Of a DNA stretch of 64,000 bases, positions 6,187-31,690 are shown in pieces; position 1 is the stretch's first letter, and every line of letters begins with the position of its first letter. Origin of the DNA: Longitalea luteola (GTDB taxonomy: Bacteria; Bacteroidota; Bacteroidia; Chitinophagales; Chitinophagaceae); NCBI RefSeq assembly GCF_017356035.1, contig NZ_JAFIQX010000005.1, forward strand, positions 159,368-223,367, written 5' to 3'. The notes beneath the pieces were generated by a model. The model did no database searches, was not told the DNA's origin, and saw nothing but the letters and a program-made list of their open reading frames with translations. A program made the translations under genes and the position numbers.

Positions 6187-7632
6187 GTGGTGCAACTTCC
6201 TCAACAACTTCTTGATTCTTTAACCGGCGTAGCAGGCTTCAGCAGGGAAGCGTTTGTTCAGGTGCATGAAAGCGGCGAACAGGTTACTTCGGTTCGCATG
6301 AATCCAGGCAAATGGTCAATGGTGAATGGTGAATGGTCAATAGGAAATGGCCTTCCAACGATATTTCAGCAGTCCCTGAACCTCCCATCTTCAACAAAAA
6401 TACCCTGGTCGTCCTACGGCTACTATTTACCGGAGCGGCCTGCATTTATCTTTGATCCGCTCATCCATGCCGGTGCCTATTATGTACAGGAGGCGTCGAG
6501 TATGTTCCTGGAGCAGGCGCTTATGCAAACGACAGCCATTGATCAGCCCCTGCGGGTGCTGGATCTTTGTGCGGCACCCGGCGGTAAATCGACCCTGTTG
6601 CAATCCCTGATCAGCCCCGACAGTTTGCTGGTGAGCAATGAAGTGATCAAATCGAGGGCAGCCATCCTCGAAGAGAATTCTGTGAAATGGGGCGGGGCCA
6701 ATGTCATTGTTACCAATGCAGACCCTGCAGCCTTTGAGCGGCTTCCCAACTTTTTCGATGTGATCGTTATTGATGCGCCCTGCTCAGGATCGGGATTGTT
6801 CCGGCGCGAGCAGGAAGCGATCGGCGAATGGAGTGAACAGAATGTAACACTTTGTTATCAGCGGCAGCAGCGCATTCTGGCGGCTGCGTTACCGGCATTG
6901 AAGGCAGGCGGCGTACTGATCTATTCCACCTGTTCTTATTCGAAAGAGGAAGATGAGGATATAGCCGACTGGCTGATGGATACGTTTACGGTTGACAGTT
7001 TGCCTTTGCAAACAGAAACTTCCTGGGGCATTGTGGAAACACGATCCGACAAACACCAGGCATACGGCTATCGCTTTTTTCCAGATAAAGTAAAGGGCGA
7101 GGGCTTTTTTATCGGTTGTTTTCGCAAACAGGAAGGCGGCGGTCACAGTACCAGGCCTCCTAAGAAATCATTACTCCAAAAGGCATCCAGGAACGAATCG
7201 GCGATCGTGCAACCCTGGCTGCAAGCAGGATTGCAGCTGCAGTTGTGGAAACAGAAAGAAGAGCTGCTCGCCTTTCCCCAACAACTGGAAAAGGACCTGC
7301 TCACCATTGTTGATAATGTGTATGTACGCCGTGCCGGCATTACTGTTGGTAAAATAGCCGGTAACGACCTGTTGCCTGACCATGCACTGGCATTAAGCAC
7401 TATCATCAGTGCGTCAATTGTTGCAGTAACGTTAAAAAAGGAAGAGGCAATACAATATTTGCGGAGGGAGGAAGTTAGCGTATCAACACCACATAAGGGT
7501 TGGACCCTGGTGCAATACGAGCATTACAATATAGGATGGATGAAGGTGCTGGCAAACAGGATCAACAATTACTATCCGCAGGGATGGCGCATATTGAAAA
7601 GAATTCCCGATCATAGCAGTGAAAACAGCTAG
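6187..7632 (+). CDS. RsmF-like rRNA (cytosine-C5) methyltransferase
   Basis: NOL1/NOP2/Sun-family enzyme that methylates cytosine C5 in rRNA using SAM. Residues 115-220 carry LDLCAAPGGKSTLLQSL (SAM motif I), VIVIDAPCSGSGLFRR and YSTCSYSKEEDEDIADW, including both conserved cysteines (nucleophile and release). The C-terminal half, with VYVRRAGITVG and a basic end, fits the RNA-binding region of RsmF-type enzymes. Total length, 481 residues, is normal or slightly long. Residues about 42-55 (WSMVNGEWSIGNG) are encoded by a heptad repeat array with a 7-residue protein period, absent from the family as I know it. GTG at 6187 or 6190 is the start; no ATG fits. Confidence 0.88.
   Translation: MVQLPQQLLDSLTGVAGFSREAFVQVHESGEQVTSVRMNPGKWSMVNGEWSIGNGLPTIFQQSLNLPSSTKIPWSSYGYYLPERPAFIFDPLIHAGAYYVQEASSMFLEQALMQTTAIDQPLRVLDLCAAPGGKSTLLQSLISPDSLLVSNEVIKSRAAILEENSVKWGGANVIVTNADPAAFERLPNFFDVIVIDAPCSGSGLFRREQEAIGEWSEQNVTLCYQRQQRILAAALPALKAGGVLIYSTCSYSKEEDEDIADWLMDTFTVDSLPLQTETSWGIVETRSDKHQAYGYRFFPDKVKGEGFFIGCFRKQEGGGHSTRPPKKSLLQKASRNESAIVQPWLQAGLQLQLWKQKEELLAFPQQLEKDLLTIVDNVYVRRAGITVGKIAGNDLLPDHALALSTIISASIVAVTLKKEEAIQYLRREEVSVSTPHKGWTLVQYEHYNIGWMKVLANRINNYYPQGWRILKRIPDHSSENS
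6311..6352. repeat. Heptad array inside the RsmF-like gene
   Basis: Six consecutive 7-base words: AATGGTC, AATGGTG, AATGGTG, AATGGTC, AATAGGA, AATGGCC. The 42 bases equal 14 codons, so the reading frame is kept. Identical words occur in the intergenic array at 26319-26392 and, inverted, at 15949-15970. Confidence 0.9.
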
Positions 7633-8799: not shown

Positions 8800-9003
8800 C
8801 CCCCTAAAGGGGGAAAAAGGAATGCTTACGCGCTTTGGGAAGAGGTCACTTCATTCAACAGTCTGTAAAGGGTAGAATTTGATATAAGAAAAGGTATGCG
8901 ATCTGTAACGATAGCATACCTTTTCTTATTCGACTTCCGCCTTGTTAACCAGCCGAATTTTCTTATGCTTTTTAAAGCGCGGTAGCTCTCCCCCTTTAGG
9001 GGG
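8800..9003. repeat. Pair of C5-TAAA-G5 palindromes in the convergent gap
   Basis: A 14-base palindrome-like sequence, CCCCCTAAAGGGGG, lies at 8800-8813 and its reverse complement, CCCCCTTTAGGGGG, at 8990-9003. The second contains the TAA stop of fmt and is flanked by runs of G/C that encode the Pro-rich fmt tail. A related CCTCCTTTAGGGGG occurs at 30696-30709. Confidence 0.8.
8884..8929. terminator. Bidirectional terminator hairpin
   Basis: Perfect 16-bp arms (ATAAGAAAAGGTATGC and its complement) with a 14-base loop, flanked by A-rich and T-rich ends, located between the convergent LysM gene and fmt. It should stop transcription from both sides. Confidence 0.8.
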
Positions 9004-10063
9004 CCGGGGGGGTAGGTGGGGGGGTAAGTGGGGTGTTAGGTATTCGGTACCCCCGTAAAAACTCATCTACCGTCATTTTCTTTTTTCCTTCCAGTTGCAG
9101 TTCGGTAACATGAATATACCCATCGGCGCCGGCGAATTTTATATAGGTCTTTTGATCTGTTTCAATACTGCCTGCGGGTTTAGGCGAAGGATGTATTTCC
9201 TTTTTTGCCTTGTAGATCTTCAGCACTTTTTCGTTCAGATATGTAAATGCTGCGGGGTAGGGCGATAAGCCCCTGATGAGATTGTAAATAGCCGCAATGG
9301 GTTGGTTCCAGTCTATTTTACATGTTTCAGTAAATATTTTAGGAGCGTGTTTCAGTTGCAGTGCATCATAAAGTTTAGAATGATCAGTTCCCGGTTCCCG
9401 GGTCCCTGTTTCCAGGCCCTGGTGACTGCTAACTGGTAACCGGTAACTGGTATTTTGTGGTATTTCTTTCAAAGTGCCATTCGTTAAACCTGCCACCGTT
9501 TTAACCAGCAATTTTGCGCCGATCTCTTTCATGCGGTCATGCACTTCACCAGCGGTTTCATCATCGCCGATGGGAAAACTTTCCTGCAGCAGTATATCGC
9601 CGGTATCAATTTCATGTTGCAGTTTGAAAGTGGTTACGCCGGTTTCTTTTTCTCCATTGATAACGGCCCAGTTGATAGGTGCAGCCCCGCGGTATTGCGG
9701 CAATAAGGAACCATGCAGGTTGATGGTTCCCATCGGAGGCATGTTCCATACCACCTCGGGCAACATACGAAAAGCAACCACGATCTGCAGGTCGGCCTGT
9801 AATGCTTTGAGTGTTTCAATAAAAGCAGGATCTTTTAATTTCACCGGTTGCAGAATGGGCAATTGTTTTTCAACTGCATATTTCTTCACGGCGCTTTCGG
9901 TTAATTTCATTCCTCTGCCGGCAGGTTTGTCAGGCGCGGTGATCACCGTTATGATATTAAAGCCTGCCTGCACCAATGCGTCCAGCGAAGCCACTGCAAA
10001 TTCAGGTGTGCCCATAAACACAATTCGGGGACTATTGTTCGTGTGAGGTTTGTTTTCTGCCAT
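8996..10063 (-). CDS. fmt: Methionyl-tRNA formyltransferase
   Basis: Formylates initiator Met-tRNA with 10-formyltetrahydrofolate. The start region has IVFMGTPEFAVASLDALVQA; the active site shows the NLHGSLLPQYRGAAPINWAV signature near residue 115 (Asn, His and later the Asp of ETGVTTFKLQHEIDTGDIL). The C-terminal domain follows with IDWNQPIAAIYNLIRGLSPY. At 355 residues it is about 40 longer than the E. coli enzyme. Two additions explain this: an in-frame heptad array at 9382-9453 between KEIPQ and LKHAPK, and a Pro/Thr-rich tail (NTPLTPPPTPPAP) encoded by the GC-rich repeat that also holds the stop codon. The core looks intact. Confidence 0.95.
   Translation of the reverse strand: MAENKPHTNNSPRIVFMGTPEFAVASLDALVQAGFNIITVITAPDKPAGRGMKLTESAVKKYAVEKQLPILQPVKLKDPAFIETLKALQADLQIVVAFRMLPEVVWNMPPMGTINLHGSLLPQYRGAAPINWAVINGEKETGVTTFKLQHEIDTGDILLQESFPIGDDETAGEVHDRMKEIGAKLLVKTVAGLTNGTLKEIPQNTSYRLPVSSHQGLETGTREPGTDHSKLYDALQLKHAPKIFTETCKIDWNQPIAAIYNLIRGLSPYPAAFTYLNEKVLKIYKAKKEIHPSPKPAGSIETDQKTYIKFAGADGYIHVTELQLEGKKKMTVDEFLRGYRIPNTPLTPPPTPPAP
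9382..9453. repeat. Heptad palindrome inserted in frame in fmt
   Basis: On the minus strand the words run ACCAGTT, ACCGGTT, ACCAGTT, AGCAGTC, ACCAGGG, then CCTGGAA, ACAGGGA, CCCGGGA, ACCGGGA, ACTGATC. The two halves are imperfect inverted copies of each other (about two thirds of positions pair). Length 72 is a multiple of three. The word family is that of the intergenic arrays at 26461-26500, 33789-33905 and 56601-56700. Confidence 0.9.
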
Positions 10064-10861: not shown

Positions 10862-10970
10862 CTAAGTTTGAAGTCGGATAATAAAACACAGTCCGAAGTA
10901 AGAAGAATACACTTCTCACTTCGGATTTTTTATTTGGATTTACCTCCGACCTCCGACTTCCGACCTCGTA
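10862..10970. repeat. Heptad element CCGACCT/GAAGTCG
   Basis: A left arm (AAGTTTGAAGTCGG, GTCCGAAGTAAGAAG) and a right arm with words CCTCCGA, CCTCCGA, CTTCCGA, CCTCGTA. The same word family makes the arms of the element inside prmC (22203-22350). Confidence 0.8.
10892..10931 (+). terminator. Hairpin terminator after FKBP gene
   Basis: Arms TCCGAAGTAAGAAG and CTTCTCACTTCGGA (13 of 14 pairing), a 6-base loop and six T. The stem is built from the words of the heptad element around it, so the repeat seems to serve as the terminator. Confidence 0.7.
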
Positions 10971-20825: not shown

Positions 20826-21227
20826 ATGAGTATAAGAAGAAGACTCAGAACACACTCGGAGATGCATGCAGGAGCGTTGAACGATATCCTGTTCATCCTG
20901 TTGTTCTTCTTCCTTATTGTATCCACTTTGGCCAATCCGAATGTGATCAAGCTGTCGCAGCCAAAGGCTAAAAGCGATACCAAAGCCAAACAAACGGTTA
21001 TTGTGAATATTAAACCTACCGGTGAATACATCATCAACGGTAAACAGATCTCTATTGAAGAAATGACGGCCTTCATTCAGCCTTATGTGCAGAAAGATTC
21101 AACGCAGGCGACAATAGCGATCAATGCCGACAAAACGGTGCCGCTCGAAAACGTAGTGGCCGTTATGCGTGTGGCCAGAAACCTCGGCGCAAGATCTACT
21201 TTGCTGGTAGACACGAAGACCAATTAG
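20826..21227 (+). CDS. exbD: ExbD/TolR biopolymer transport protein
   Basis: 133-residue single-pass protein paired with the upstream channel. The segment HAGALNDILFILLFFFLIVS contains the membrane helix with the conserved proton-carrying Asp (NDILF). The periplasmic domain (from about residue 45) includes VNIKPTGEYIINGKQISIEE and the typical ATIAINADKTVPLENVVAVM. Length is normal. The TAG stop at 21225-21227 is the first word of the large octad array. Confidence 0.92.
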   Translation: MSIRRRLRTHSEMHAGALNDILFILLFFFLIVSTLANPNVIKLSQPKAKSDTKAKQTVIVNIKPTGEYIINGKQISIEEMTAFIQPYVQKDSTQATIAINADKTVPLENVVAVMRVARNLGARSTLLVDTKTN

Positions 21228-21706
21228 TTAATTAGATAATTAGATGATGTGATAATTTGATAATGGAAAACAAAATACAATTAGCTAATTGGCTAATTAG
21301 CTAATGTGCTAATGTGCTAATGGAATACACAAATGCAATTTGATAATTAGATGATGTGATAATTTGATAATGGAAAACAAAATACAATTAGCTAATTGGC
21401 TAATTGGCTAATGTGCTAATGGAATACACAAATGCAATTAGATAATTAGATGATGTGATAATGTGATAATGGAAAACAAAATACAATTAGCTAATTGGCT
21501 AATTAGCTGATGTGCTAATGGAATACACAAATGCAATTAGATAATTAGATGATGTGATAATTTAATAATGGAAAACAAATACGATTAGCTGATTAGCTGA
21601 TGTGCTAATGGATACAAAAGCTCCTTGATTTATTGGAACTGTATTAATTATCACATTATCAAATTATCACATTATCAAATTATCACATTGGTTTTCATTA
21701 GCACAT
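21225..21706. repeat. Large octad array: four ~99-bp direct repeats plus inverted arm
   Basis: The unit begins GATAATTAGATGATGTGATA at 21235, 21342, 21441 and 21540 (spacings 107, 99, 99). Copy 1 has an extra octad. Each unit carries two blocks of 8-base words, GATAATTA/GATGATGT/GATAATTT and GCTAATTG/GCTAATTA/GCTAATGT, joined by GGAAAACAAAATACAA and GGAATACACAAATGCAA. At 21644-21706 the same words appear inverted (ATTATCAC, ATTATCAA). Both flanking genes end inside it: exbD by its stop and prmC by its last ten codons. No coding potential. Confidence 0.93.
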
Positions 21707-22670
21707 TGGCCTTGATCATCCTGTCTTTCCCCTGAAGATCCTTCTTCACTTCCGCAGCAAACCCTTTCGATTCAAACAGTTTTTTAGTGCTTTCGCCCAG
21801 GTCTTCATGAATTTCAGCAATGAGGGCGCCGCCGGGTAACAAATGCAGTAACGCAAACCGGGCAATGGCCTCATAAAACAACAGCGGATCGTCATTGGGC
21901 ACAAACAATGCCAGGTGTGGTTCGTAGGCCAGTACATGCTGTACCATGCTGCTTTGATCACTTTGCGGGATATAAGGCGGGTTGCTCACGATGAGATCCA
22001 CCGCCGGTAAAGATGGCCAGGTGGCGGTATCCAGAAAATCGGCGTGCAGAAAATGAACGGCAGTTCCATGCGCCGTTGCATTGCGGGCAGCTACCGAGAG
22101 CGCCGCTGCGCTCACATCACAGGAATAGATCTCCGCCTGGGGTAGTTTCTTTTTTAATGCAATGGGTATGCAGCCGCTGCCGGTGCCTATATCAAGTATT
22201 CTGAGGTCGGAAGTAGGAGGTGGGAAGTAAGGCGGGTTTTCATTCTTCTGGTCTCCTGACTTGTCCGCCGGCGCCTTGCCGTAGGTAGATTGCAGGTCGC
22301 CTGTTCCTGGTCCTGTATTTCTTGCTTCATACTTCATACTTCTTGCTTCTGAAAACACCCACTCCACAAGCTCCTCCGTTTCAGGCCGGGGGATAAGCAC
22401 GTTCTCATCAACATAAAAAGACATACCGCAGAACCAGGCCTCGTGCAGCACGTATTGCACCGGTTTATGCGCCAGCAGTTCGCTGGTATATTGCTGCAGC
22501 CTCGTTATTTGCTCAGCCGTCAGGGGCGACTGTTTATACATAATGCGGTCGATCTTCCGCAGGCCGGTAACAGATTCCATCACCCAGTCGGCAATATTGG
22601 CCGCCTCGCGGTTGTCGTACAATGCATACAGGGAAGTCTGCAACTGCTGCTGTGCTTCATGAAGGGTCAT
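21675..22670 (-). CDS. prmC: Release factor glutamine methyltransferase
   Basis: Methylates the Gln of the GGQ motif of peptide-chain release factors. Signatures present: LIPRPETEELVEWV, the SAM motif ILDIGTGSGCIPIALKK, and the catalytic VDLIVSNPPYIPQ. The protein has 331 residues against about 280 expected. The excess is an in-frame repeat element at 22203-22350, between EWVFSE and RILDIG, encoding residues such as SMKYEARNTGPGTGD and PPYFPPPTSD. The last residues, NVLMKTNVII, come from the octad array downstream. The catalytic core is intact, so the inserted loop may be tolerated at the junction of the N-terminal helical domain and the Rossmann domain. Confidence 0.94.
   Translation of the reverse strand: MTLHEAQQQLQTSLYALYDNREAANIADWVMESVTGLRKIDRIMYKQSPLTAEQITRLQQYTSELLAHKPVQYVLHEAWFCGMSFYVDENVLIPRPETEELVEWVFSEARSMKYEARNTGPGTGDLQSTYGKAPADKSGDQKNENPPYFPPPTSDLRILDIGTGSGCIPIALKKKLPQAEIYSCDVSAAALSVAARNATAHGTAVHFLHADFLDTATWPSLPAVDLIVSNPPYIPQSDQSSMVQHVLAYEPHLALFVPNDDPLLFYEAIARFALLHLLPGGALIAEIHEDLGESTKKLFESKGFAAEVKKDLQGKDRMIKANVLMKTNVII
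22203..22350. repeat. Complete inverted-arm element inside prmC
   Basis: The left arm GGTCGGAAGTAGGAGGTGGG is purine-rich; the right arm CTTGCTTCATACTTCATACT is its approximate inverse, with 7-base words (on the minus strand GAAGCAA, GAAGTAT, GAAGTAT, GAAGCAA). A GC-rich centre includes CCGCCGGCGCCTTGCC. About 150 bases, kept in frame; the word family is that of 10862-10970. Confidence 0.87.
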
Positions 22671-31502: not shown

Positions 31503-31690
31503 AATAGTTCATAGTTTAAAGTTCATCAGTTATTCAGTTCCTAAGTTCCTGAGTTATTGAGTTATTCAGTTCATAAGTTTTTGAGTTTATAATTAATCGT
31601 AAGGCTGAATAACTGAACAACTGAATAACTGAACAACTGAATAACTGAATAACTGAACAACTGAATAACTGAACAACTGAATAACCAGGA
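31503..31690. repeat. Inverted octad element AGTTATTC / AACTGAAT
   Basis: The left part, AGTTCATAGTTTAAAGTTCA then AGTTATTCAGTTCC and GAGTTATTGAGTTATTC, faces a right arm of at least eight 8-base words (AACTGAAT, AACTGAAC alternating) from 31609 to 31686. It shares words with 17624-17750. It fills the gap before kynU. Confidence 0.92.

Follow-up and report, generated by a model that had tools for sequence, protein, structure and literature searches.

Why does prmC, a gene of the essential type, carry within its reading frame a segment made of two inverted arms and a GC-rich center, and by what route could such a segment have entered a protein? The locus lies in the window, by which we mean the whole 64,000-nucleotide stretch of DNA analyzed here, from a genome of 7.30 Mb (G000). 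The product exceeds the TIGR03534 cut-off and contains the NPPY motif, which is invariant among 33 aligned sequences, and its best named PrmC matches come from Niastella (Chitinophagaceae). An initial annotation had described a complete inverted-arm element that prmC carries in frame and that had probably arrived there as a mobile repeat.

The segment itself is present and in frame as described. It forms a linker of 52 codons (22200-22355) at the joint that connects the N-terminal and methyltransferase domains, from the ELVEWV motif to the ILDIGTGSG motif. Read in gene sense, the linker begins with a heptad arm built of GAAGTATG and GAAGCAAG words, continues through AAATACAGG and a palindrome-bearing center, and ends in an inverted arm of CCTACTTC and CCGACCTC words. 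The first arm, termed W, reads GAAGCAAGAAGTATGAAGTATGAAGCAAGAA (22319-22350 plus a few preceding bases), and the second, termed W', reads CTTACTTCCCACCTCCTACTTCCGACCTC (22203-22231). When the two 40-nt flanks are aligned in inverted orientation, 17 of 22 positions pair and the score is 12. No dinucleotide shuffle out of 1000 attained this score, and 10 of 4998 windows of 155 nt drawn at random from the contig, with other arrays left in, did so. None of 500 shuffles was as strong as the linker in lag-7/8 periodicity. The features discussed here are collected in Table 1.

Table 1. Features of the window that bear on the prmC segment, with positions counted from the first letter of the window.
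Feature	Position	Strand	Basis
AATGGTC array in frame, RsmF-like gene (6187-7632)	6311..6348	+	array call; also in G007
GTTACCAG array in frame, fmt (8996-10063)	9419..9452	-	array call; region exceeds that of G007 in length
Intergenic array with GAAGTCGG/GAAGTAAG words common to the prmC arms	10871..10968	.	sequence
Intrinsic-terminator-like hairpin: GAAGT-word stem, AATACA loop, T run	10890..10931	+	fold of 10885-10935: -19.1 kcal/mol, z -7.0
Octad arrays in inverted arms, downstream of prmC	21222..21689	.	array calls
prmC, release factor N(5)-glutamine methyltransferase, 331 aa	21675..22670	-	TIGR03534, 237.2 bits vs cut-off 199.1
Array-derived PrmC linker, residues 106-157	22200..22355	-	linker extraction; lag 7/8 test; AF2 pLDDT <50 in 19 of residues 127-152
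C-rich inverted arm (W')	22203..22231	-	inverted alignment, 17/22 paired
GC-rich center, degenerate copy of dispersed palindrome CTTGTCCGCC..GCGAAGGCGG	22260..22285	+	44-nt match, 82%, to G000:C33:637626, E 4e-5
AATACAG, inner edge of W arm	22313..22319	-	sequence; AATACA enrichment on inner side of arrays
G-rich arm (W) of heptad words, encodes SEARSMKYEAR; model helix 96-118 extends into arm	22319..22350	-	array call; DSSP of model

The arm words GAAGTCGG, GAAGTAAG and GACCTC are present again in the array at 10862-10970, which bears out the proposal of a vocabulary in common with this intergenic array as far as the arm words are concerned. The proposal does not extend to the whole element: the 157-nt sequence has no second whole copy in the genome, where matches to E 1 number 27, namely the element itself and 26 partial matches of 19-44 nt. 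The match of the center at G000:C33:637626 fits the dispersed palindrome with 3 mismatches. This GC-rich palindrome, CTTGTCCGCCGTAGCCTTGGCGAAGGCGG, sought with up to 3 mismatches, has 8 copies in G000, 13 in G004, 0 in G007 and 0 in the control, and is found in 8 of 59 genomes; its places are window 22260-22285, C39:38263, 269739, 344958 and 364573, and the G004 genome, and several copies adjoin word arrays.

To place the linker among its likes, tandem arrays were called by lag-matching over 400 kb of the window's contig at thresholds of 24/35 or 20/28 matches, on which the calls depend. With N excluded, lag 7 yields 126 arrays and lag 8 yields 81, against 0-7 at lags 4-6 and 9-13. At the stricter threshold the counts are 100 and 66, against 1-4 at other lags, where one match per lag is a masked N run and a shuffled copy gives none at those lags; lags 14, 16, 21, 24 and 28 are harmonics of the 7/8 periods. 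The same preference holds in 20 stretches from 13 other genera (37 arrays at lag 7 and 14 at lag 8, against 0-2 elsewhere). Arrays thus called number about five per 10 kb in the window genome, and between genera of one family, with 20-40 kb sampled per other genus, their density ranges from 6.75 to 0 per 10 kb; the contrast is between G018, G030 and G012 on one side and G010, G015, G023, G027 and G031 on the other. By eye the arrays fall into approximately 12 word families, including AATNNGCT, GATTTNG, AGTTATT, GTTACAG, GTTTGTG, AATGGTN, AACGCNN, AAGGCNN and GAAGTCG. Two further repeats of the window deserve mention: the octad array at 21222-21617 has a higher-order repeat of approximately 99-107 nt and is longer than its positional counterpart in G007, and a 60-nt tandem repeat, TGGTTCCTGGATCTTGG, occupies 2-151 at the window start, with a masked N stretch just upstream.

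The placement of arrays is far from even. Among 307 arrays of two species, 254 are intergenic, 20 lie at gene edges and 33 fall within open frames 120 or more codons long, some of them probably not genes; 84% of the DNA is coding. Arrays nearest a start number 81, and 102 of the 192 stop-side arrays lie no more than 10 nt from the stop codon. Among gaps at least 30 nt long, an array is present in 55 of 82 that are convergent, 89 of 229 that are tandem and 17 of 83 that are divergent. On their inner side, 38 of 294 arrays have the motif AATACA no more than 45 nt away (6.1 expected), compared with 14 on the outer side, and octads constitute 29 of these 38. The prmC segment is, with good probability, one protein-coding case of this genome-wide class of degenerate heptad and octad tandem word arrays.

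PrmC is not the only protein to hold an array. In addition to the RsmF-like and fmt genes of Table 1, the 400 kb include in-frame arrays in a TIGR00275 flavoprotein gene, in a 977-aa frame that matches nothing in NCBIfam at 1e-20, and at the 5' end of mutS; array-holding frames that resemble spurious frames or over-long starts were not counted as genes. At mutS the array (C39:328304-328335, L127) lies at the 5' end of the frame, as either an N-terminal extension or an upstream start. An AlphaFold model of PrmC, computed from 33 PrmC sequences (the window and 32 of 80 loci), has a mean pLDDT of 87.8 and a pTM of 0.83. Core blocks mostly score 94-98, with a dip to 74-82 at residues 231-260 and a weak C-terminus, and the blocks covering 121-150 score 47-50, with values below 50 at residues 127-133, 137-139 and 144-152. 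The enzyme fold is thus modeled with confidence, and the insert with low confidence.

A different explanation is that prmC happens to carry a functional RNA hairpin that acts as a terminator, stabilizer or attenuator. Three chosen intergenic stretches indeed fold strongly (z -7.0, -8.2 and -4.0), arrays are enriched after stop codons, and at 10890-10931 an array has apparently been turned into a terminator, judging from the modeled fold. However, an RNA role for the prmC element itself is unlikely because its fold is no better than that of shuffles (z -0.25). A T run follows only 2 of 43 inverted pairs, with a background of 2.9%, and on this count a general terminator role was rejected. Moreover, native terminators stand apart from the arms, beside or between them, at several sites, and the order of units is not mirrored between arms. 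We consider a functional hairpin at prmC an unlikely explanation.

Comparison of PrmC linkers among relatives bears directly on the age of the segment. The initial annotation held that support for a mobile repeat would come from closest relatives without it, and this did not turn out to be the case: 9 of 10 same-genus genomes (G000-G009) bear a word array in that linker. After removal of six duplicate genomes, 81 unique linkers were obtained, 73 of them testable, by a search that demanded one open frame across both motifs, so that frame-broken cases would have been missed and in-frame carriage is partly due to the search. A 7/8 periodicity was detected in 21 of the 73 at p 0.02 (23 on rerun), and other lag pairs gave 1/81, 2/73, 2/67 and 1/81. 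The 19 linkers that bear an array by a stricter rule have a median length of 31 aa (10-52), compared with 13 aa (9-26) for the other 62 unique linkers, in agreement with the earlier view that the insert accounts for the extra length of PrmC.

The words in these linkers differ by lineage, Pedobacter included. Within the genus, clade A uses GAAGTAAG and clade B uses GGGCAGA and GGCAATCGG; a neighbor genus has GTTACAGG in inverted arms; uncultured Chitinophagaceae, Chitinophagales or Sphingobacteriales have AACGC, GTTTCAGG/GTTACAGG, AAAATG or GAAAATCG words; and three Pedobacter linkers bear arrays. On a PrmC tree built with the linker excluded, the array is present in 17 of 78 rows and 11 changes are needed, of which the starred branches force at least 7, on a quick tree with 28 of 75 forks open; for this count L006, which is partial, and other short sequences were dropped, and L046 (10 aa, AT-rich) was relabeled array-free. 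The array label is clustered on the tree (0 of 500 shuffles as low), mainly due to the genus itself. The linker of N. vici (G001) has 9 codons, and this species sits beside the window genome with a support of 89, not starred. Because it is nested, with modest support, within the array-bearing clade and retains GAAGCAGGAAATACG, its short linker reads as a contraction. The third GAAGTAA unit of L002 and L003, which would otherwise place TAA in frame, reads GAAGTAC, a replacement that would fit a translated array. As judged from these sequences, PrmC linkers were colonized repeatedly by arrays with different words.

These comparisons also speak to two other origins. If the segment were an old PrmC domain conserved in Bacteroidota, the finding that distant lineages have the same site filled would be readily explained, but the words and lengths differ between lineages, most linkers are short, the tree forces at least 7 changes and the insert is modeled with low confidence. 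The earlier view that the segment is not an old domain therefore stands, and we regard such a domain as extremely improbable. Equally improbable is a spliced or processed insertion of the intron or intein kind, for which nothing speaks except the position in an essential-type gene: the words vary between lineages, no Rfam family reaches its gathering score within the window, and splicing is not needed because the prmC frame is open throughout. Phage records contain no match to the prmC element.

How arrays change over shorter times can be read from G007, whose contig C40 is syntenic with the window contig at approximately 85% identity. An array occupies the syntenic site in G007 for 51 of the 80 array clusters of G000, and in G000 for 51 of the 61 clusters of G007. 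At several of 27 sites chosen for reading out of the 80, the word has been swapped while place and layout were kept, as at C39:174027 (GTTACAG vs GATTTNG) and C39:205057 (AACGC vs AGTTCAT). Other sites are empty in one species (C39:337834 and 225743). The terminator at C39:225743 lies between arms in G000 and is present but armless in G007, and at C39:307663 and C40:148843 a terminator is flanked by arms in both species. Given that arms can flank a terminator that may stand alone, the arms need not arrive with the center as a unit.

This last point weighs on the possibility that the segment is a discrete MITE-like element with tandem-word inverted ends, inserted in prmC and moved by a transposase acting in trans. 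Such an element would be consistent with the inverted ends, the single word in both arms, the replacement en bloc at syntenic sites and the presence of Y1 transposases in 10 of 10 same-genus genomes. Against it, many copies with fixed terminal repeats, as in MITEs and insertion sequences, were not found in the genome (the element and its 26 partial matches only); there is no second whole copy, the ends have no fixed sequence, and the center can be a native terminator (as at C39:307663 and C40:148843). Nor do Y1 copies track array density (rank correlation 0.34, p 0.11, 24 genomes). Movement as a unit, which the initial annotation had favored, thus fails on the lack of a second 157-nt copy, and we hold the mobile element to be quite unlikely. 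A Y1 transposase gene at C39:257117-257602, with a syntenic counterpart in G007, has an inverted AATGGTC array adjoining it. Ku and reverse transcriptase (RT) likewise show no significant tracking over the 24 genomes (p 0.17 and 0.20), and Y1, RT and Ku were each rejected as a simple determinant of density. Two Ku genes are present in each of nine near-complete same-genus genomes and one in the 61%-complete genome; elsewhere in the set there are 0-1, and genomes with one or none also bear arrays.

The arms have a consistent polarity. An inverted pair was defined as two adjacent arrays, less than 300 nt from each other, in which one word occurs in opposite orientations. Of the 56 such pairs with opposite skew, 52 begin with the G-rich arm, irrespective of gene orientation (9 pairs without opposite skew signs were excluded). 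The arm with G>C is first rather than second in 25 vs 3 pairs in G000, 13 vs 0 in G007 and 14 vs 1 in 23 other genomes, although G000 and G007 have many of these sites in common, so that some pairs are not independent. Pairs composed of unlike words show a similar lean (13 vs 2 and 9 vs 3). The polarity is seen in six word families; it is broken by one GATTTNG pair, one AACGC pair and one unclassified pair, and no AACGC pair obeys it. With ties excluded, the polarity holds in 18 of 21 tandem, 18 of 18 convergent and 4 of 4 divergent gaps, and the same skew is seen in 54 of 76 start-side and 127 of 186 stop-side arrays. Because polarity holds across gap types and array sides, transcription-coupled skew is an unlikely source. 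Fold-back copying was rejected as the only origin of the second arm, since the arms mirror each other in the order of their units in 1 of 40 inverted pairs at P 0.05: the word is common to both arms and the order is not.

Vocabulary offers another view of how arrays are related. In G007, 70% of array 7-mers fall within the G000 vocabulary, compared with 13% for reversed arrays, although orthologous arrays contribute to this figure. Overlap with G000 is also elevated in two other genera, G012 (46 vs 15 reversed) and G022 (50 vs 6), and all 75 other-genus arrays together give 20% vs 15% reversed (p 0.20), with unit-permuted controls at 9.5% (maximum 12.8%). The shared vocabulary, strong between the two species and partial with other genera, points to words being copied from locus to locus within a lineage. 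Such copying is likely, and would amount to a weak form of the mobility originally proposed.

The mechanism that we infer from the 7/8 period, the placement, the 5' position of the G-rich arm, the turnover, the repeated use of the linker and the in-frame carriage, all of them computed, treats the array in PrmC as a passenger. We think it probable that a genome-wide repeat process of slippage and repair copying has left in PrmC an array that is tolerated and serves no function of its own. Arrays would grow and shrink through slippage in a register of 7-8 nt, and repair copying from arrays of the same word would seed or replace them. Arrays might then persist at places of low harm, such as just after stop codons and in flexible protein linkers, and selection would hold the PrmC array in frame and free of stops. 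Slippage alone accounts for neither the common vocabulary nor the polarity.

A more speculative reading, to which we give only a slim chance, is that arrays are scars of break repair in which a polymerase, templated or slipping, adds G-rich words of 7 or 8 bases to both 3' ends, which are then joined head to head, much like telomere fusion. If true, the fixed 7/8 register, the single word in both arms, the unmirrored order and the G-rich arm reading from flank to center would be explained together, and in PrmC a coding sequence would have come through such scarring on more than one occasion. Under the passenger reading preferred above, the PrmC linker illustrates how repeats that code for nothing can be turned into linkers of proteins. 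An array-dense genome, a syntenic sister species, a consistent polarity and a recolonized essential-type gene together provide a system in which to measure array birth, spread and replacement.

REP palindromes associated with Y1 (RAYT) transposases are short, dispersed and located near gene ends. The present system resembles them in that a Y1 gene is present and the GC-rich center belongs to a dispersed palindrome family, but its arms are tandem words without a fixed sequence and their density does not follow Y1 copies. The open-licence papers among the matches listed contain nothing on such arrays in Niastella or Chitinophagaceae, which is weak evidence of absence; arrays of this genus, paired-arm polarity, word replacement at syntenic sites and repeated colonization of one linker were not seen in that literature.

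The nearest known kind comprises the heptanucleotide STRRs of cyanobacteria together with the heptamer arrays found in Xanthomonas and Beggiatoaceae. A 1997 paper by Vioque reportedly concerns, by its title, heptanucleotide repeats of cyanobacteria. As described in two reports (PMC3488679, PMC2670836), the heptanucleotide STRRs of cyanobacteria are degenerate 7-bp units with hairpin-capable arms that occur inside essential-type genes and vary in copy number among close relatives; such repeats are also named in a reference title in PMC2858038. The arrays studied here are likewise 7-nt, head to tail and degenerate, with an additional 8-nt class, and they are mostly intergenic and dispersed, with several words per genome. 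Their intergenic arms can pair, and the prmC arms align in inverted orientation although the RNA fold is no better than shuffles. They differ in having 8-nt units, arm polarity, a protein-coding host and another phylum. One typed cyanobacterial STRR-type repeat, used as a query with the low-complexity filter on, gave no match.

Heptamer over-representation in bacterial genomes is already known, and the mechanism named for a 7-nt unit is polymerase slippage, according to the accessible text of two papers (PMC4692102, PMC4679880). In Xanthomonas, GGGAATC heptamers lie closer to the 5' gene than to the 3' gene regardless of how the genes are oriented, and length and sequence vary considerably between close species (PMC4692102, available portions). 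The unit is also a heptamer, and its polarity is the same as here if 5' is counted along the G-rich strand, but that system comprises one word family, and paired arms are not described in those portions of the paper, whereas many words and paired arms occur here. From the corresponding portions of PMC4679880, TAACTGA arrays are found in Beggiatoaceae, some cyanobacteria and five Bacteroidetes, where they are intergenic except for one set inside a putative purC, and some relatives have shorter gaps and no array. These, too, are heptamer arrays in intergenic DNA, and a related 8-nt unit, TAACTGAA, is present in the window at 31605-31684. In contrast to that system, which is treated mainly as a single word and in its main genome lies mostly just before start codons, the arrays described here use many words and mostly follow stops.
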